Source of the DNA: Rhodococcus sp. OK302
GTDB lineage: Bacteria; Actinomycetota; Actinomycetes; Mycobacteriales; Mycobacteriaceae
Direction of reading: 5' to 3'
NCBI RefSeq assembly: GCF_002245895.1
Contig: NZ_NPJZ01000001.1
Coordinates: 1,103,001 to 1,167,000 of the forward strand
DNA length: 64,000 nucleotides
Of this stretch, positions 9,268-17,946 are shown in pieces (the first letter of the stretch is position 1; every line of letters begins with the position of its first letter). The notes under the pieces were generated by a model that was not told where the DNA came from, ran no database searches, and was given only the letters and a program-made list of their open reading frames with translations. Position numbers and translations under genes: made by a program.

Positions 9268-10860
9268 GTGTGTTCCGATAACAACCTCGCGCCCAAGCTC
9301 CCGCTGATCGATTCGGGAGCGTTGACTCGTTGCCGCCACCGGGTCCGTCTCGACGGACTATTTCCGGGGAAGTCGGCGTCGGAACCTGTCGATACCGGAG
9401 TCAAGCAACGTCAGGAATCGGCGATCGCCAAGCGCGCCGAGATCGCGGATCTCGTGATCAGCGCGGATCCGGAGCGGTGGGTGCGCATCGATTCCGACCA
9501 GTCCACGGCAGCGCAGGCCCGCGACACCCTCGCGGCCTGTGAGGCCGGCGCCGACAGAATCTGGGGCGCGGTGCTGCCCGTCGAGCGCGACACCGGGCGC
9601 AAGGGTCGTTGCGAAATGCTCATCCGCGACGTCGACGGTGGCGGCTACATCCCGGTGATCGTCGTCAACCACAAAGTCACCGATCCCGGGCAGGGCGCAA
9701 TCACGTCGGGATTGTTCGAGTGGGAGCCCGAGACGGATCCGAAGCGCAAGGTCCGAAGCCAGGTCCGCGACCAGATGCGTGTCGCCCAGGTTTATCGAAT
9801 GCTCGAGCGCCGGGGACTGGCGAGTCCGTCGTTGCAAGCCGGTGCCGTCGGCTACAACGGCGACTGCATTCTCGTGTACGACCTGAGTGCGATTCTCGAG
9901 GACTACGACGAGCGTTACGACGACAGAATTGCCGTGGCGCGCGGTGAGATCTTGACCTCGCCTTCGCAGATCAGTGAGTGCAAATCGTGCCCGTGGTGGA
10001 CGGAATGCAAGCAAGAATTGGTTCGCAATCGGGATGTCAGTCTGGTGGCCGTCGGCTCGCGGGCCGAGCTGCTGCGTGACGCCGGGTGCAACACCATCGA
10101 TCAACTTGCCGCGTGGGAAGGCGAGCCGCTCGAGGATTGGCCGCACGGGAACTTCGACGACGCCGTCGTGATCGCGAAAGCCTGGCTGGTGGGCGCTCCG
10201 TTGGTGCGACGCTTCGAGGAAATTTCGGTGACTCGCGCCGATATCGAAATCGATGTCGACATGGAGAGCTACCAGGAGCACGGTGCCTACCTGTGGGGGA
10301 CTTTGCTCAATGTTGGTGGCTTCTCGATGTATCGAGGTTTCGCGACGTGGGATCCGTTGCCGACGCGTGACGAGGCGCGGTCGTTCGCCGAATTCTGGGG
10401 TTGGTTGATGGCGGAGCGTGCTGCTGCTGCTGCTTCCGGTAAAACCTTTGCCGCATACTGCTATTCGCGATCAGCTGAGGACAAGTGGTTGTTGGATTCG
10501 GCTCGAAGATTTGCCGGAGAACCGGGCATACCAACCAAAGACGAGATCCGAGAGTTCATCGACAGCCCACAATGGGTGGATATCTATCAGGCAGTCAGCG
10601 ATCAGTTCATCTGCCCAGAAGGTAAGGGGCTCAAGAAGGTTGCTCCGGTTGCAGGATTCAATTGGCGTGACGCCGAGGCCGGCGGCGAGGCGTCCATGGC
10701 CTGGTACCGCGAAGCAGTCGGTTACGACGGAGAGCCCGACGAGTCGCAACGGACACGGATCCTGCAGTACAACGAGGACGACGTCATCGCCACCAAGGTC
10801 CTACGTGAATGGATGACTGATCGTGCGGTGAAGGAGATTCCCTTGGCGTCGGATCTCTGA
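9268..10860 (+). CDS. TM0106-type RecB-like nuclease with RNase H-like domain
   Basis: About 530 residues if started at the GTG at 9268; the open frame reaches back to 8929, but that part overlaps the divergent gene. The first half resembles the RecB/Cas4-type PD-(D/E)XK fold of TM0106 proteins and contains the compact cysteine cluster CKSCPWWTEC. The second half, from about residue 320, has DVDMESYQEHGAYLWGTLL, matching the acidic first motif of the YprB-like RNase H fold, and ends with NEDDVIATKVLREW, a DEDD-type closing motif. Family members are putative exonucleases of unknown substrate. The start codon is the least certain part, as no good ribosome site is close to it. Confidence 0.75.
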   Translation: MCSDNNLAPKLPLIDSGALTRCRHRVRLDGLFPGKSASEPVDTGVKQRQESAIAKRAEIADLVISADPERWVRIDSDQSTAAQARDTLAACEAGADRIWGAVLPVERDTGRKGRCEMLIRDVDGGGYIPVIVVNHKVTDPGQGAITSGLFEWEPETDPKRKVRSQVRDQMRVAQVYRMLERRGLASPSLQAGAVGYNGDCILVYDLSAILEDYDERYDDRIAVARGEILTSPSQISECKSCPWWTECKQELVRNRDVSLVAVGSRAELLRDAGCNTIDQLAAWEGEPLEDWPHGNFDDAVVIAKAWLVGAPLVRRFEEISVTRADIEIDVDMESYQEHGAYLWGTLLNVGGFSMYRGFATWDPLPTRDEARSFAEFWGWLMAERAAAAASGKTFAAYCYSRSAEDKWLLDSARRFAGEPGIPTKDEIREFIDSPQWVDIYQAVSDQFICPEGKGLKKVAPVAGFNWRDAEAGGEASMAWYREAVGYDGEPDESQRTRILQYNEDDVIATKVLREWMTDRAVKEIPLASDL

Positions 10861-11372: not shown

Positions 11373-13651
11373 CCCCGACGCGCGCGCAGCTCAACTCGTG
11401 GGATCCGGCCGCCCTGAACACTATTGCCGATTCATGGACTTCTTTGGGCAGCAAGGCAGAGGACCTGTTCGCCAGGTATCTCAGCAGTGTGACGATGATC
11501 AACGGTAACTACTGGGAAGGGAAGACTGCCGAAGCAGCTCAGGACAGAGCGGCCGCGGACAAAAAGACGGCCGGGGAGATTGCCGACGCACTCGAGGCTC
11601 TCGCAGCTACAGCGAGGAACGGCTACTACGAGATCGAATCTCCCTTGAGGGATGCCCGTTTGGCAATCGATACAGCGGCTAGCAACAATTTCTCGGTCTC
11701 TGAATCCCTTGTGCTCACTGACTCGAGCGCAGAACCGGACGCCGCTCGCGTGGCGTTGATGCAGGAATGTCAACGTGAACTTACCGACAAGGCAAATGCG
11801 GCAGAAACAGCCGACAACGACCTCCGAAGTTCCCTGGCAGCTGCGCGTGACGGATTGCGGGTGAAATTCACTTCGGCAGCTACGTCGGGTGGACAACAGG
11901 GTAAGAGTGATTTTGATGCGATGGCCAAGCATCCGGAGTCGATGACGCCGGAGCAACTGCAGCGGATTTCGGAAAGCGGGCACTTGACGCCGGAGCAGGC
12001 TGCTGCATTGGAACGCGGTGATACCGCGACAATTCCGGCTTCGCAGATGGAATACCTCAACCAACTCAGTCGGTCGCTGGACGGCAAATCGCCTCAGCAG
12101 ATCGAAGACCTGCTCTCGAAACTGCCACCGGATGCGCGGGCGTCGGTCGCCAACTCGTTGCAGATTCTCTCCAACGAGCACGTGACCGCGTCGGTGGAAG
12201 GTGATTCCGAAATTCCGACGAAGGGCGGACTGGACGTACTGCCGGACAAGATGCGTGAATCGTTGACTCGGGATGACTTGGTTACGGGCGACTTCCAGGT
12301 CAGTGGCCAGAGCTTCATCCGTACAGTCGAACTCAATGGTGTTGCCGACAATCTGGCTATCGCTGACATCGTCGCGATGGGTGACGATCAATACAAGACC
12401 GGCAGTGAACTCGATAAGTCGCTGTTGGAGGTTGGTAGGCAGTATCTGAATGCGGAGGTCGCTCAGGAGCAGCTCAGGCCCTCTGAGCGAGCCGGCTTCT
12501 TTGCCGACGGGGGCAGTCCGGACAAGGGGCTCACCGAGCGGATCTTCGCCGCTGTGGGAGATGACAAGGTTGCTGTCGATGCTGCTGTGAACAATCCCGA
12601 GAACGGCAGTGATTTTGTGAAGGATGTGCTGTCGCACAACTGGACTGACGACGGCAAGGCTGCGTCGACGCTCTTCGATTTCCCGGATGGTGATGCCACG
12701 GTGGAGAATCCGAATGACCCGACGGATGTGGCGACGGCAACTCGTTCCGGCAGCATCATGTCAGCTGTTGGTGAGGCGGTCAGTACCGGCGATGCGTGGA
12801 AACTGTTGTCGAATGTTCCCGAAGCTGATCGTCAGTCGGTTGGTCAGCTCAATCCTGATTTGTTGCAGACAGTTTCGAGCAGTATGAGCCCGTATGTGTC
12901 CCATCTGGCTGGGGCAGTTCCTGAGAACCTTCCCGGTTTCGACACTGATGGATGGGCTGATCCGGACGGGATGCAGCATTACACTGGTTCGGCAAACGTG
13001 TTCGCGTTGATGAATACCGATGAAACAGCTGGGACGAATTTTACGCAAGCGGCGTATCAGGAGATGCTCGCGAAGCAGGGTGAGTATGCGCTGAACCCTA
13101 TGGGTGAAAGCGTAGTCAACAATTTGGATACTGCTGGAACCCTTGCCGGACTGGCTGATGTCGGGTTGCTTCGCGGCACCCAGGATGGTTACGACGATAC
13201 GGCAGCGCAGGCAGCCGAAATGTATGCGCGTAAGAACAATGCGTACGGTGCTTTGATGAGCCTCGGAACGTTGGGGATCGGCAACCTATCCGGCGGGGAT
13301 TACATCAATGCCATGCTCGGTGCCGGGGGAGATCCGTTGAAGGAGTCGATAATCGGTGCGCAACCTACAGGTGCTGATTCGGCTAAACTTTCAGGTTTCG
13401 ATTCAGCTAAACAGGCTTACAATATTTTGAATGCTGCGCCAGAATTGCCGCCTGAATTCAAGACCTACGATTGGGCATTCAATCATGACGGAACCTTGAA
13501 GTCATGGGATGATCTTCAGGTTTCGGCCGGGAATAATAAGGCTAAGTTAGGTGACATCAACACGATGTTCTCGACGTTCGGTCGTCCAAGCGATAGTCAT
13601 TATTCGAGAATGCAGGACAGCTATGACAAGGCGACATTCTATGATCACTAG
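11369..13651 (+). CDS. Large WXG100-like type VII-associated protein
   Basis: A 760-residue acidic protein without signal peptide. Residues 1-130 form a helical hairpin with W49-E-G51 at the turn (NYWEGKTAEAA) and a YYEIE segment fitting the YxxxD/E export signal. The rest is soluble and helical with short repeated motifs such as MTPEQLQRISESGHLTPEQ and SPQQIEDLLSKLPP, resembling the TPR-like regions annotated in large ESX-linked mycobacterial proteins. I see no recognisable C-terminal toxin motif. It sits between an EspC-like gene (4-base overlap) and a lipoprotein gene whose start overlaps its end. A 132-base part (12011-12142) recurs at 14475-14606. Function unknown; secreted effector or structural protein are both possible. 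Confidence 0.6.
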   Translation: MTPTRAQLNSWDPAALNTIADSWTSLGSKAEDLFARYLSSVTMINGNYWEGKTAEAAQDRAAADKKTAGEIADALEALAATARNGYYEIESPLRDARLAIDTAASNNFSVSESLVLTDSSAEPDAARVALMQECQRELTDKANAAETADNDLRSSLAAARDGLRVKFTSAATSGGQQGKSDFDAMAKHPESMTPEQLQRISESGHLTPEQAAALERGDTATIPASQMEYLNQLSRSLDGKSPQQIEDLLSKLPPDARASVANSLQILSNEHVTASVEGDSEIPTKGGLDVLPDKMRESLTRDDLVTGDFQVSGQSFIRTVELNGVADNLAIADIVAMGDDQYKTGSELDKSLLEVGRQYLNAEVAQEQLRPSERAGFFADGGSPDKGLTERIFAAVGDDKVAVDAAVNNPENGSDFVKDVLSHNWTDDGKAASTLFDFPDGDATVENPNDPTDVATATRSGSIMSAVGEAVSTGDAWKLLSNVPEADRQSVGQLNPDLLQTVSSSMSPYVSHLAGAVPENLPGFDTDGWADPDGMQHYTGSANVFALMNTDETAGTNFTQAAYQEMLAKQGEYALNPMGESVVNNLDTAGTLAGLADVGLLRGTQDGYDDTAAQAAEMYARKNNAYGALMSLGTLGIGNLSGGDYINAMLGAGGDPLKESIIGAQPTGADSAKLSGFDSAKQAYNILNAAPELPPEFKTYDWAFNHDGTLKSWDDLQVSAGNNKAKLGDINTMFSTFGRPSDSHYSRMQDSYDKATFYDH
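12011..12142 (+). repeat. Source copy of a 132-base duplication (partner 14475-14606)
   Basis: This stretch of the WXG-like gene matches 14475-14606 without gaps and with 5 mismatches by my count (about 96 percent), and both copies are in an open frame reading ASQMEYLNQLSRSLDG. An adjacent 19-base piece, 12241-12259, also reappears next to the downstream copy but inverted. Confidence 0.9.
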
Positions 13652-14423
13652 ACGTGTGATGGCGGCGGCCGTAGCCCTGGTATGTGCGGCATCTACAACA
13701 GCATGTGGTGGTGACTCACCTGCAGTTTCTGTCGATATTGCGACGGTCTTGCCATTTCCCTACACGACTGTGTGGTCGGCTGATCCTGGTATCGATTTGA
13801 TCGGACGCGGTGCGGAATTGATTCGTGTTGCCGAGGAATCTATTGAATACACTTTCGCTGCCGGGCCTGAAACTACCTATCCGGGTTATTTTGATGCGGT
13901 TCGTGACAGTAATAGCTGGATTACTCCCGGAAATCCAGGTTTCCGCACCGAAGGGGGGACGAACTATGGACGCGTACATACCTGGTTTCGGCATGTAGTT
14001 GATTACTCGGTGAATTCGAATTCAGTATCGGCCACAGTGTGTAGCTATCGGTTATTTCAGAAACCGAGCGAAAGGCCAGGGGAGGCCGTTCTTTCTGATT
14101 CTGTACGGATCACTTTGGTGAATGCTGCGGAACTTCCGGGCAAGCCGGGGATTGTAGATACCGATGTGGATGGTCATGATCCTCGTGCGCAACGGCCGCC
14201 GGTGTGGAATGTTTTCGGAAACTGGAAAATCACCGAGTACACATCGATTCGGAGTGACGCGATCCCGCAGCAGTGTATCGATTGGTGGAAACTGGAATTT
14301 CCGATGTTTACCACAAGTTTTTCCGGGAGCAGAGCATTGAGGTCACCTCCCGGCTATGTCATGCCGACGATGCCGATGGCCGTGCAGTATCCGGAGTGGA
14401 TCGGTCCAACTGATGTGTCGTAG
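13623..14423 (+). CDS. Putative lipoprotein paired with the WXG-like protein
   Basis: A 266-residue exported protein. The ATG at 13623 has an AGGACAG ribosome site; ATG 13641 is an alternative. The N-terminus (basic, then AAAVALVCAASTTAC-GG) looks like a lipoprotein signal with Cys28 as the lipidated residue, though the -3 position is Thr rather than Leu. The mature part has TTVWSADPGIDLIGRGAEL and a beta-rich domain with two further cysteines (ATVCSYRL and QQCIDWW). No family is recognised. The gene starts inside the end of the 760-residue gene, so the pair is coupled. Remnants of at least three related copies lie directly downstream. An immunity or receptor role for the secreted partner is a hypothesis only. 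Confidence 0.65.
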   Translation: MTRRHSMITRRVMAAAVALVCAASTTACGGDSPAVSVDIATVLPFPYTTVWSADPGIDLIGRGAELIRVAEESIEYTFAAGPETTYPGYFDAVRDSNSWITPGNPGFRTEGGTNYGRVHTWFRHVVDYSVNSNSVSATVCSYRLFQKPSERPGEAVLSDSVRITLVNAAELPGKPGIVDTDVDGHDPRAQRPPVWNVFGNWKITEYTSIRSDAIPQQCIDWWKLEFPMFTTSFSGSRALRSPPGYVMPTMPMAVQYPEWIGPTDVS

Positions 14424-14435
14424 TCGGCTGCGAAA

Positions 14436-14747
14436 GTGATTGCAGAGGTACGTATTTCGTCGGCTTCTCGGCTGGAATGTGGTGATACCGCGGCAATTCC
14501 GGCTTCGCAGATGGAATACCTCAACCAACTCAGTCGGTCGCTGGACGGCAAAACGCCTCAGCAGATCGAGGACCTGCTCTCGAAACTGCCACCGGATGCG
14601 CGGGCGTTCACGCATCTTGTCCGGCCGCGGGGCGGAACTGATGAGAGCAGGCATACTGCACGGCTTGATGGATCGGGAGATTCCTTGCAGCAGTCCATTA
14701 TTGGGAAGAAGCCGAGTGCTGTGCCGCAACGATGCTCAAGATGCTGA
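14436..14747 (+). pseudogene. Mosaic remnant of WXG-like and lipoprotein genes
   Basis: A patchwork of pieces related to the two genes upstream. 14475-14606 is a near-identical copy of 12011-12142. 14607-14625 (TTCACGCATCTTGTCCGGC) is the exact reverse complement of 12241-12259. Around 14623-14649 the sequence encodes GRGAELMRA, matching GRGAELIRV of the lipoprotein. Around 14676-14714 it encodes GDSLQQSIIGKKP, matching GDPLKESIIGAQP of the large protein. The pieces are in different frames, no start or signal survives, so this is debris of rearranged paralogous cassettes rather than a working gene. Confidence 0.8.
14475..14606 (+). repeat. Downstream copy of the 132-base duplication
   Basis: Gap-free match to 12011-12142 with 5 substitutions (two in one codon). 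It ends exactly where the inverted 19-base segment begins, so the junction records at least one inversion after, or during, duplication. Confidence 0.9.
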
Positions 14748-14765
14748 GTGGTAAGCAGGTAAACA

Positions 14766-15300
14766 TGTTCGGCTTGGGCGACTCTGTCAATTTCCGTAGT
14801 TCTGATCGTATCTTCCTGTGGTACATCAGACTCCGGCGGTGTCGATACGGCCGACAGAGTTCCGGTGTCCGATCGCTTTGCGCCGCATGTGTGGTCTGAG
14901 GATGCTGATATCGACTTGTTCTCTCGCGGATCGGAGTTGTTGCGCACTGCGTACGAGGCGGGCTATTACTGGCCTGTCATTCACGAGGTCGATGATTTTT
15001 TCCCTGGGTAAACCAAATCGCTCGGACATGGTCGTAATATATTCGGCAACACCAGATTTGAAAACAGATCGGAGTTTTTAGCTCCAGTCGAGCAGACGGA
15101 ATTTACTCATATCACCAACTATTCGGCAACCGATACCACTGTCTCCGGCACGATCTGCATCTACTGGGTCCGTACCACGACTGCCACAAGTGGATCGGTG
15201 AGAGGCCGCGGGTCTGCCGGGTGTGACCGATTCCGATCCGGGGCGCGGCGAGCTTGGCGCCCGAAATGATTTCGAGGGTGGGGATTTCGTCAGTAGTAGC
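14766..15300 (+). pseudogene. Degenerate paralogue of the upstream lipoprotein
   Basis: In the frame beginning at 14766 the sequence reads a hydrophobic segment ending LIVSSCGTSDS (lipobox Cys at 14817), then DRFAPHVWSEDADIDLFSRGSELLRTAYEAG, which lines up with TTVWSADPGIDLIGRGAELIRVAEES of the intact lipoprotein. A TAA at 15009 interrupts it; the same frame continues beyond the stop with EFTHITNYSATDTTVSGTI, matching the beta-rich domain (VVDYSVNSNSVSATV). Near 15195 homology shifts frame (AAGLPGVTDSDPG against AAELPGKPGIVDTD). No ATG/GTG start remains. Nonsense plus frameshift make this a pseudogene. Confidence 0.8.
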
Positions 15301-15354
15301 CATGACATGAAACTCCGGCGCTTGGGCCTGATGCCGCGTATTTCGGAGATTCTG

Positions 15355-15387
15355 TACACAACAGTGCGGTCGGCTGATCCGAGTGCA
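15355..15387 (+). pseudogene. Third lipoprotein fragment
   Basis: Encodes YTTVRSADPS, matching YTTVWSADPG of the intact lipoprotein (13761-13787), after the end of the larger pseudogene and therefore from a further copy. 15390-15560 has no reading frame I can support. Confidence 0.55.
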
Positions 15388-15612
15388 AGGACGGACTGCC
15401 CTGATGGCGGAATTCGTGGGCTCTGATAGTGGAAGCCGGATCGCGGCGGCTTTCGACAGCAGTGTGTACCGAGACCGCCAAAGGTCTCAATTTGGTTGAT
15501 ATGTCCGGGTTTCGGGTATAGATGTAACTTTCGGGACCGCAATTGGTCAGAGGTCTGGAACACTACTTCCGTAGGCGCCTGTGTTGGTAGCTGCGTAGGG
15601 GAGGGCTGTTGA

Positions 15613-17946
15613 ATGTCGAGCAACGTGGACACCGGTGGAGCCGTATCCGAATTGTCGGAAATCGAGCAGCAAGATCTCTTTGCGAGGCAAATGGGCCAAG
15701 CGACAACTGTTGCACCACTATCCAACATTGCCAATATCTTCAGCTTGTGTGCGCTGCTGATGTACGTCGTACCGTCGGACCATCAGAACTTCCGAATACT
15801 CTGGGGAGCCGCCGCCATTTTGGTGGCAGGAAATTCGGTTCGAGTATGGCTGCCGCGGAGTAAGTATGTCTCCGTGTGGCGTGCACGGGCGCACACAACT
15901 CGGTACGACTACTGGGCGCTGATGATCGAGGTGATCCTTCTCGGGGTTCTCATGACCATCTTTGCCGCAAAAATGCTTCCGGTCGTGGATGGCCCTCGCC
16001 GAATGGTGTTGACGGCCACGATAGCCGGGCTCATGGGCGCCGGCGCCGTGGCTCTGTCGACGGTTCGATCCATTAGTTTGGCGTGGATCCTCGTGCACGG
16101 GCTAGGCCTCCTGCTCGTTATACTCCTGAGGCCTGAAGTGGAATATCGTTATCTGGCATTCCAACTCGTCATGTACACGTTTGCATTGTGTGTTGCGGCG
16201 GTGTATCTCTCGTCTTCGTTCCGGGCTCGTTGTCTTGCAGAATTCGAGGCTGCGGCGGAGCGCGAAACGGTGGGACTGCTCCTCGATGACTTTGAGGGCG
16301 GATCGCGCGATTGGCTCTGGGAAGTCGGCATCGACGGCAAAATGTCGCGCGCTTCGACGCGACTGTCGCAGGTATCAGGAATTCCTGTCGCGGAGTTGCG
16401 GGAGCTCACCTTTCGCAGACTCCTCGAACGGCTCGAGATCGGATCCACCCGGGGTGGAGCACAGGCACTGGAGGCGCTGGTTGGCCACCTCGAAGCACTG
16501 GTTCCGTTCCGTGACGTGGTTGTTCCGGTTCGTGTGGACGACGGCGATCGATGGTGGTCGTTGTCAGGTAATCCGCTAGTTGCCCAAGACGGTTCGAACC
16601 GTGGCTGGCGTGGAATTGGATCGGACATAACGGAAAAATACAATTTTGAACAGAAGATCTTGTGGCTCGCGGCAACCGACGCATTGACCGGGCTGCCGAA
16701 CCGGAGAGCATTCAGCGAAGAACTCGACGCTGCGCTCGACAGCACTCGGATCGACCAGCATGTTCACGTCGCCATTCTCGACCTCGACAACTTCAAATCC
16801 GTCAACGACACACTGGGGCATTCGGTCGGTGACAAACTGCTGATCGCAGTCGCGGCGAGGTTGGATGAAGTAGCCGAGAAAGGTCTCTGTGCTCGCATCG
16901 GTGGAGACGAGTTCGGGCTTATTCACCGTTCCCCGGCAGAAGACATCAGCACAGCTCGGTTTGCAGACTATCTGGAGGCATTGCGTGAACCGTTCCTGGT
17001 GAATGGCAACAGAATCGAAGTGCGCGCAAGCATCGGATATGCCAGCAGCCCAGTTGATTCCGAAGAATCGGATGGTTTGGTGATGTTCGCTGACTTGGCG
17101 TTGTACGACGCAAAAGCTGCGGGCCGGGATCGCGTCGGCAGGTTTTCGGCGGTCCTTCGAGCGCGGGCCAGCGAGCGGGCGGTTGCGTTGCAAGAGCTGG
17201 GGCGGGCCATCGAGGCGCGTGAATTCGAGCTGTACTACCAACCTCAAATCCATGCGGCAACAGGCCGAATCGAGGGGTTCGAGGCGTTGCTGCGCTGGAA
17301 CCACCCGGACCGGGGAATGCTGGCACCGGGTCATTTCATCGACGTCGCCGAAGAAACCGGACTGATTGTCCCGCTCGGTGTGCAGGTATTGGAAATGGCT
17401 TGTGCCGCAGCTATGACCTGGCCCGACGACATTCTGGTCGCGGTTAATGTTTCACCAATGCAATTGGCGTCCTTGGATTTTGGTGCGGAAGTGGCGCAAG
17501 CACTTGCCAAATCAGGGCTTCCGGGGTCCCGACTACAGCTCGAGATCACCGAAACCGGTACCGTCGACGATCGCGCTGTCGCGCAGCTGGTCGCGTTCCG
17601 CGGATCTGGAATATCGATTGCACTCGACGACTTCGGTACGGGCTATTCATCTTTCGAGACCGTCCGGCGACTACCTCTCGACGTGCTGAAGATCGACCGA
17701 CTATTCGTCTCGGAACTGCACCAAGACTCCGCCGTCGTCGAGTCGCTTGTCGAAGTTTCCCGTTCGATGGGGATCAGGTCCCTCGCCGAAGGAGTAGAAA
17801 CAGTAGGGCAACTCGATCAACTTCGTTCTGCCGGTTGTGAACTCATCCAAGGCTTTTACATCAGCCGTCCGCTTCCGGAATCCAAAGTTGCGGACTACCT
17901 GGAAAACAACAGGGCCACTGCAGGTTTCCCTGGCAGTGGCCCCTAG
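15613..17946 (+). CDS. Membrane-bound GGDEF-EAL c-di-GMP turnover protein
   Basis: A 777-residue protein. Residues about 40-200 contain some five transmembrane helices (a MASE-like sensor region), then a PAS-like domain at about 225-340 (RDWLWEVGIDGKMSR, WRGIGSDITEKY). The GGDEF domain follows (ATDALTGLPNRRAF) with an intact GGDEF at 430-434, then an EAL domain with EALLRW at 557-562, ITETG, DDFGTGYSS, KIDRLFV and AEGVET. Both active-site sets look complete, so it could make and degrade cyclic di-GMP; which dominates cannot be read. The start has a GGGGAGGG ribosome site. The last codons form a terminator hairpin. It is a single-gene unit. Confidence 0.92.
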   Translation: MSSNVDTGGAVSELSEIEQQDLFARQMGQATTVAPLSNIANIFSLCALLMYVVPSDHQNFRILWGAAAILVAGNSVRVWLPRSKYVSVWRARAHTTRYDYWALMIEVILLGVLMTIFAAKMLPVVDGPRRMVLTATIAGLMGAGAVALSTVRSISLAWILVHGLGLLLVILLRPEVEYRYLAFQLVMYTFALCVAAVYLSSSFRARCLAEFEAAAERETVGLLLDDFEGGSRDWLWEVGIDGKMSRASTRLSQVSGIPVAELRELTFRRLLERLEIGSTRGGAQALEALVGHLEALVPFRDVVVPVRVDDGDRWWSLSGNPLVAQDGSNRGWRGIGSDITEKYNFEQKILWLAATDALTGLPNRRAFSEELDAALDSTRIDQHVHVAILDLDNFKSVNDTLGHSVGDKLLIAVAARLDEVAEKGLCARIGGDEFGLIHRSPAEDISTARFADYLEALREPFLVNGNRIEVRASIGYASSPVDSEESDGLVMFADLALYDAKAAGRDRVGRFSAVLRARASERAVALQELGRAIEAREFELYYQPQIHAATGRIEGFEALLRWNHPDRGMLAPGHFIDVAEETGLIVPLGVQVLEMACAAAMTWPDDILVAVNVSPMQLASLDFGAEVAQALAKSGLPGSRLQLEITETGTVDDRAVAQLVAFRGSGISIALDDFGTGYSSFETVRRLPLDVLKIDRLFVSELHQDSAVVESLVEVSRSMGIRSLAEGVETVGQLDQLRSAGCELIQGFYISRPLPESKVADYLENNRATAGFPGSGP
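17912..17942. terminator. Hairpin terminator between convergent genes
   Basis: GGGCCACTGC (17912-17921) pairs with GCAGTGGCCC (17933-17942); the 11-base loop can form a further AGG-CCT pairing. It lies across the last codons and just before the TAG of the GGDEF-EAL gene and can serve the convergent SDR gene too. Confidence 0.75.

Follow-up and report, generated by a model that had tools for sequence, protein, structure and literature searches.

What is the origin of the broken sequence that lies behind a predicted secreted-effector cassette in Rhodococcus sp. OK302, and what does it say about the way in which such cassettes change? The window, by which we mean the whole stretch of 64,000 nucleotides analysed here (contig NZ_NPJZ01000001.1, positions 1,103,001 to 1,167,000), holds a row of three genes, called P1 (small partner gene), P2 (large effector-like gene) and LIP (lipoprotein-like gene), and behind them, from 14424 up to the next gene at 15613, a region in which an earlier note on this DNA had seen rearranged copies of the same genes. 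A search at E 0.001 found one such cassette plus debris in the whole genome. In our judgement the debris is, with a probability of roughly 0.78, the previous P2-tail/lipoprotein module of a predicted type VII-secreted effector cassette, displaced by a module that recombined in and now decaying: a different tail-lipoprotein module would recombine into P2 and push the old module downstream, where decay would follow.

A piecewise search against the corresponding loci of two Rhodococcus relatives, ARC_M6 (L033) and IEGM 1379 (L035), resolved the debris into parts which are all on the forward strand, with the exception of an inverted 19-mer (14607-14625). The first part is a 49-bp joint (14424-14472), the first 20 bases of which are 85% like the sequence just 3' of the ARC_M6 lipoprotein stop (a weak match, E 0.26), and which is followed by the block that heads the displaced module (14473-14607), where P2 codons ~207-259 occur a second time. 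Behind the 19-mer are three 3'-end pieces of a P2 tail of the ARC_M6/IEGM 1379 type, here called type B (14620-14757, with pieces at 14620-14677, 14665-14714 and 14729-14757), and then a type-B lipoprotein pseudogene (14758-15252), in which positions 14758-15170 match the ARC_M6 lipoprotein gene at 79% over 414 columns and 15194-15252 is an additional lipoprotein piece. This remnant has a one-base indel near its start and an in-frame TAA near 15009, and has lost its 3' part. The last part of the debris (15263-15384) is an older relic, consisting of the sequence after a type-B lipoprotein and a type-A-like lipoprotein fragment, which is common to IEGM 1379 and matches the older debris there at 91% and 86%. 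On the right the site is bounded by a conserved region upstream of the next gene (15414-15612), which is 88-90% identical to ARC_M6 and IEGM 1379 and ends at the same start codon. The earlier note had thus rightly seen a third fragment and a pseudogene with TAA and frameshift, but had called the latter nearly full-length, whereas its pieces, taken together, stop about half to two thirds of the way through the gene; it had also taken the whole of 14424-15612 as debris, without listing the P2 tail pieces at 14620-14757 and with inclusion of the conserved upstream region.

Apart from the 135-bp head block and the inverted 19-mer, which fall outside it, the order of the parts is that of the ARC_M6 and IEGM 1379 loci (P2 tail, lipoprotein, older lipoprotein relic in IEGM 1379, next gene), and the remainder of the debris is, as read from the alignments, one colinear, deletion-riddled copy of the other 3' allele plus an older relic. 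When BLAST bits of 14608-15260 against P2 plus LIP were summed, ARC_M6 scored 526 and IEGM 1379 484, against 70 for the window's own genes and 35 for R. globerulus, and therefore the debris represents another allele and not a copy of the present cassette. At the protein level, the lipoprotein remnant is 30% identical to the resident LIP and ~70% identical to the ARC_M6/IEGM 1379 type. The most likely interpretation of these matches is that the debris allele was the previous occupant of the site. The changes unique to the remnant are distributed 12/11/27 over the three codon positions, which shows that much of its divergence arose under constraint, and hence that its decay is recent relative to that divergence.

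The exchange itself can be seen in the comparison of the window with ARC_M6. The number of synonymous substitutions per site (dS) is 0.19 for the upstream gene nucl, 0.09 for P1, 0.12 for P2 codons 1-200 and 0.19 for codons 200-480, then rises to 1.50 for P2 codons 480-700 and 2.95 for LIP, and is back at 0.21 in the downstream GGDEF gene. Likewise, identity per 200 bases is 89-98% up to position 12808, 44-74% over tail and LIP, and 88-96% from 15409. The step is sharp, with 0/30 differences at codons 491-500, then 5/30, and 20/30 at codons 511-520, which places the left border of the swapped-in C-terminal module (12880-13651, forward strand) at about codon 505-512. No such step is present in the comparison with R. 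globerulus, where dS is 0.74-1.31 across nucl, P1, the P2 segments and LIP. For tail and LIP, ARC_M6 and IEGM 1379 are of one type and the window and R. globerulus of the other, with the resident LIP showing 59% identity to R. globerulus and 35-36% to ARC_M6 and IEGM 1379. With the jump in dS confined to the P2 tail and LIP, the most likely event is a swap of the 3' module in which the old one stayed behind downstream. As the debris belongs to the ARC_M6 type, it was most likely this type that occupied the site first. The earlier note had expected that close strains with intact cassettes would supply the missing ancestors, and this is what ARC_M6 and IEGM 1379 do. Although the backbones of the window and ARC_M6 are much closer, the identity of the remnant to ARC_M6 (79%) does not exceed that between ARC_M6 and IEGM 1379 in this part, so that earlier exchanges are likely as well. 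More P2 relics are located between lipoprotein and next gene in both sister genomes (L035:11505-11828 and L033:11134-11423), and therefore displacement has probably occurred here more than once.

The two elements outside the shared order had been the centre of the earlier note, which described a ~132-base repeat of the WXG-like gene at ~96% identity and an exact inverted 19-mer from ~100 bases further along that gene. Both are there: the block at 14473-14607 matches 12009-12143 over 135 bp at 96.3% (E 1e-60) and is the sole second match of the debris in the genome at E 0.001, while 14607-14625 is the exact reverse complement of 12241-12259, with its source 98 bp past the end of the block in P2. 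The longest inverted match in 300 dinucleotide shuffles of the debris was 15, versus 19 observed. The 19-mer joins the end of the 135-bp block, with which it has one base in common, to the tail debris; six of its bases also fall within the IEGM 1379 match, where five are identical. One true direct repeat and one exact inverted repeat are what could be expected if the resident cassette had been duplicated and inverted repeatedly and had then decayed, as had been proposed. We consider this very improbable, as the lipoprotein and tail debris match the other allele and are colinear with the loci of the relatives, and no inversion larger than 19 bp was found in the debris; what stands from that proposal is a decaying cassette of the same kind at a place of turnover. 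With the debris taken as a displaced module, the 135-bp backbone repeat would have arisen as a duplicated end when the new module was recombined in, and the inverted 19-mer would mark, as a templated scar, the place where the displaced copy later lost ~320 codons.

Two adjacent alleles could in principle also come from misassembly, either as an artefact, which the earlier note had named as the result that would undo its claim, or as a chimera of two strains. This is hardly credible, since the genome (6.79 Mb) is in 2 contigs at a completeness of 100, the debris is colinear with the loci of two relatives whose genomes were assembled independently, it shows frame-breaking decay, and equivalent stacks are present in other genomes.

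By itself the single debris is ordinary decay, and it is the stack behaviour behind it which is of interest. LIP homologues were found in 70/301 genomes of the family, and 18 stretches were fetched, chosen for several or strong LIP matches and not as a random sample. In 14 of these 18, two to seven LIP frames are located beside P2 in one stretch; the exceptions are L127 and L128 with one LIP frame, L130 with a split LIP frame and a distant P2, and L122, where lipoprotein frames (L122:7341-9138) occur without any P2 match in 16 kb. Displaced P2 pieces were counted in 13 of the 18 stretches, three loci of the genus and the window, and such a piece precedes 13 of the 32 extra LIP genes (16 raw matches minus three re-hits of the main gene), versus 0/32 in the antisense control. 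The matched displaced tail pieces are 39-149 residues long, with ~420-504 in L121. Stop-to-stop frames of at least 240 aa are present in 28/32 extra LIP genes, a proportion which is favoured by the frame-based listing.

The clearest case is L117 against L118 (G187 and G137), which are from one genus; L118 and L119 are orthologous stretches and thus not independent. The first displaced pair of L117 is 91.9% identical over 1357 bp to the resident pair of L118, versus 49% at the amino acid level to L117's own resident tail. LIPs 2, 5, 6 and 7 of L117 are closest to LIPs 1, 2, 3 and 4 of L118, in that order (92, 93, 97 and 96% aa), while LIP 5 is cut and LIPs 3 and 4 are without close counterpart. 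The resident LIP of L117 matches in type the LIP at the end of the displaced series in L118 and L119 (83-85% aa). The ratio of nonsynonymous to synonymous substitution rates (dN/dS) of the counterpart LIP pairs is 0.13-0.57, with one identical pair and few changes in some, and is consistent with constraint. These two genomes of the family thus appear to show the same push-down as the window. Two transposase frames, which from their translations seem to be IS3-like, are inserted in the lipoprotein array of L117 (L117:10827-12295), between the fourth and fifth LIP.

Based on these comparisons we favour, with moderate confidence, a more general reading in which chromosomal EspA-like type VII effectors in Rhodococcus and the rest of its family keep a push-down stack: a new tail would be placed behind a fixed backbone and the old pair move one place down, after which the tails are whittled away and the lipoproteins retained as a record of surface immunity, the order of which can be read like strata.

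The co-variation of tail and lipoprotein was calculated for 9 of 13 loci of this cassette, leaving out L065 (frame-split) and L069, L071 and L036 (cut or partial). The correlation of tail and LIP identities was 0.94, and 0.87 with the backbone removed, a value reached by 0/2000 permutations, whereas that of backbone and LIP with the tail removed was 0.12. Many genomes of the genus have, at another place, a second and distant P2/LIP pair (L072-L083), for which the co-variation is seen again: in 10 of the 12 loci (one without LIP match and one with a short P2 were dropped), the tail-LIP correlation given the backbone was 0.66, again with 0/2000 permutations reaching it, and with one of the ten an outlier at ~30%. 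In these alignments, the co-variation of tail and lipoprotein is stronger than that of either one with the P2 backbone.

The predicted function is based on phage-borne relatives. P2 has matches in six phage records, and three cassettes from phages or prophages were examined (Aegeus, prophiFSAT01-1 and prophi79-1), with profile E-values computed for 11 proteins. Mycobacterium phage Aegeus has the genes in the same order, as gp36 ('WXG100 protein', 110 aa), gp35 (759 aa) and gp34 ('polymorphic toxin immunity protein', 276 aa), of which the 759-aa protein is a P2 homologue (E 1.5e-60) and the annotated immunity protein is homologous to LIP (E 1e-16). The P2 profile matches the large gene in 3/3 cassettes (E 4e-65 to 2e-49), two of which are from M. 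abscessus prophages, and a LIP profile of 71 sequences matches the third gene in 3/3 (E 2e-25 to 1e-16), with reversed controls no better than 0.4; the P1 profile matches their small WXG genes weakly (E 1.1e-5, 0.0035 and 0.017). Cassettes of this type have been named PEST, and are reported to have co-varying tail and immunity genes and to recombine with each other, and two PEST cassettes are reported to be toxic in M. smegmatis without the immunity gene (PMC10654092). The order P1-P2-LIP is the PEST order of WXG partner, polymorphic toxin and immunity gene, as it is in the three examined records. By analogy with these cassettes, P1 and P2 would be exported together by an ESX (type VII) machine, the variable P2 tail would act on competing neighbour bacteria, and LIP would neutralise P2 on the surface of the producer.

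The same displacement could also have taken place if P2 and LIP were a surface or adhesion pair, or a phage-receptor/antigen pair, with diversifying selection driving the exchange of the halves that interact. We regard this as unlikely, albeit the most serious competitor, because of the homology and identical gene order with phage and prophage cassettes annotated or described as toxin/immunity, and because open-frame extra lipoproteins beside cut-down tails are expected of retained immunity and not of an adhesin partner.

Several observations weigh against a displaced toxin/immunity module. With regard to toxicity, no toxin domain was found in P2 in the Pfam search, its structural model is all or nearly all helical without an enzyme-like match, and the tails of the two alleles are homologous throughout (~50% aa), unlike the unrelated folds of classical polymorphic toxins. 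In two of the three phage or prophage cassettes the P2 match ends at profile position 613 or 539 of 762, with much of the tail uncovered, and homology to P2 was not established here for the two toxicity-tested PEST cassettes. EccD was the only part of the secretion machine searched for, and its gene is present elsewhere in the genome. With regard to the displacement, a donor of the new tail/LIP module was not found, no displaced tail was found ahead of 19/32 extra lipoproteins, and the displaced lipoprotein of the window is broken and would no longer protect. As to when the 135-bp block split off, its few differences are in conflict (three debris-only, one window-P2-only, two conflicting sites), and the permutation tests at both loci are not corrected for phylogeny.

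Compared with known systems, and going by the predicted proteins, the closest is PEST, although the cassette in the window is chromosomal; it is not a member of the Rhs, TslA/TilA or esaG families. The likeness to PEST consists of three genes with a small WXG partner, a WXG-headed large effector and an immunity gene, of co-variation of tail and immunity gene, and of recombination between cassettes, with P2 and LIP homologous in the three examined cassettes, which are themselves likened to PEST by layout and homology and not assigned to a PEST superfamily. The difference is in the chromosomal site between two conserved genes, which is not a phage or phage-like island, and in the stacks of displaced tails and lipoproteins, and as it is chromosomal and not phage-encoded we call the cassette PEST-like and not PEST; a word search of PMC10654092 gave neither 'orphan' nor 'lipoprotein'. 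The arrangement resembles orphan Rhs-CT/RhsI modules, in which a displaced C-terminal tail and immunity gene follow the intact gene and begin with a near-identical piece of its conserved part; there, 522 bp are common to the displaced Rhs tail and the main gene at 95% (PMC3967940), compared with 135 bp at 96% in the window, and displaced Rhs immunity genes can protect (PMC10539506). Here protein family and secretion route are different, the displaced immunity gene of the window is broken, and there is no Rhs or CdiA core, as the Pfam matches of P2 are only TPR_23 and a weak WXG100. The S. aureus TslA/TilA system (PMC10730906) and esaG arrays (PMC9484751), as far as the excerpts used describe them, share a type VII effector, lipoprotein immunity (TilA) and variable extra immunity genes, and displaced effector pieces are not reported for either in those excerpts. 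TslA differs in being a lipase with reversed domain order, whose lipoproteins are of family DUF576 (PMC10730906), and no Pfam match to a lipase domain or DUF576 was found here; an LXG domain is likewise absent among the Pfam matches listed for P2. Finally, P2 resembles EspA/EspC of mycobacteria in having a TPR_23 EspA-like domain and a small gene paired upstream, but differs in its 760 aa, exchangeable tail and lipoprotein gene, and EspA function is not implied.

Rhs and contact-dependent inhibition (CDI) systems are known to have displaced toxin/immunity modules, and type VII systems of firmicutes to have arrays of immunity genes. If our interpretation is right, the cassette would be an actinobacterial type VII counterpart, located on the chromosome and not in a prophage, in which lipoproteins are the likely antidotes, and proteins now named 'TPR repeat region-containing' or 'hypothetical' would be connected with competition between bacteria. 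From the stack order one could then read how old successive weapons are relative to each other, and every resident or displaced pair would allow a direct test of which tail a given lipoprotein protects against.

With regard to the resident proteins, P1 (10935-11372, forward strand, 145 aa) is likely a WXG100/EspC-type secretion partner as predicted from its sequence, and overlaps P2 by 4 bases; neither P1 nor LIP has a Pfam match. P2 (11369-13651, forward strand, 760 aa) matches TPR_23 'ESX-1 secretion-associated protein EspA-like' (E 2.2e-70, residues 203-438), followed by the exchanged C-terminal third (~505-760), and its WXG region is modelled as a helical hairpin. When 20 rows were aligned, two of them without this region, W-x-G was present in 17/18 and [YF]xxx[DE] in 16/18, with the strict Y of YxxxD/E in 7/18 only. 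A glycine-rich hydrophobic stretch, possibly a membrane-acting segment, is present at ~0.8 of the length of several distant P2 homologues, and is weak in the P2 of the window. LIP (13641-14423, forward strand), the resident type-A putative lipoprotein and predicted immunity protein, has its start overlapping the P2 stop. A loose lipobox pattern is present near the N-terminus of 19/27 aligned LIP sequences, several others being N-terminally short, and the box in the window is atypical (TTAC).

The cassette, in which gene ends overlap, is located between nucl, which ends at 10860 and which we take to be of a nuclease type, RecB-like, and the gene at 15613-17946, presumably of the GGDEF/EAL type. 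In six related genomes (G001, G002, G012, G013, G017 and G022) nucl is closely followed by a match to the GGDEF gene without a cassette, this match being partial in G013 and in three pieces in G022. Behind the cassette of R. globerulus just a C-terminal remnant of the GGDEF/EAL-type gene was found (L034:11050-11318). In five more distant genomes (L064-L068) the cassette adjoins the same nucl gene convergently, so that the neighbourhood is kept and the orientation is not. A protein from a public contig (P0028) apparently has the end of nucl fused in frame to P2, and is without a stretch beginning near P2 codon 261, close to codon 259 where the 135-bp block of the window ends.
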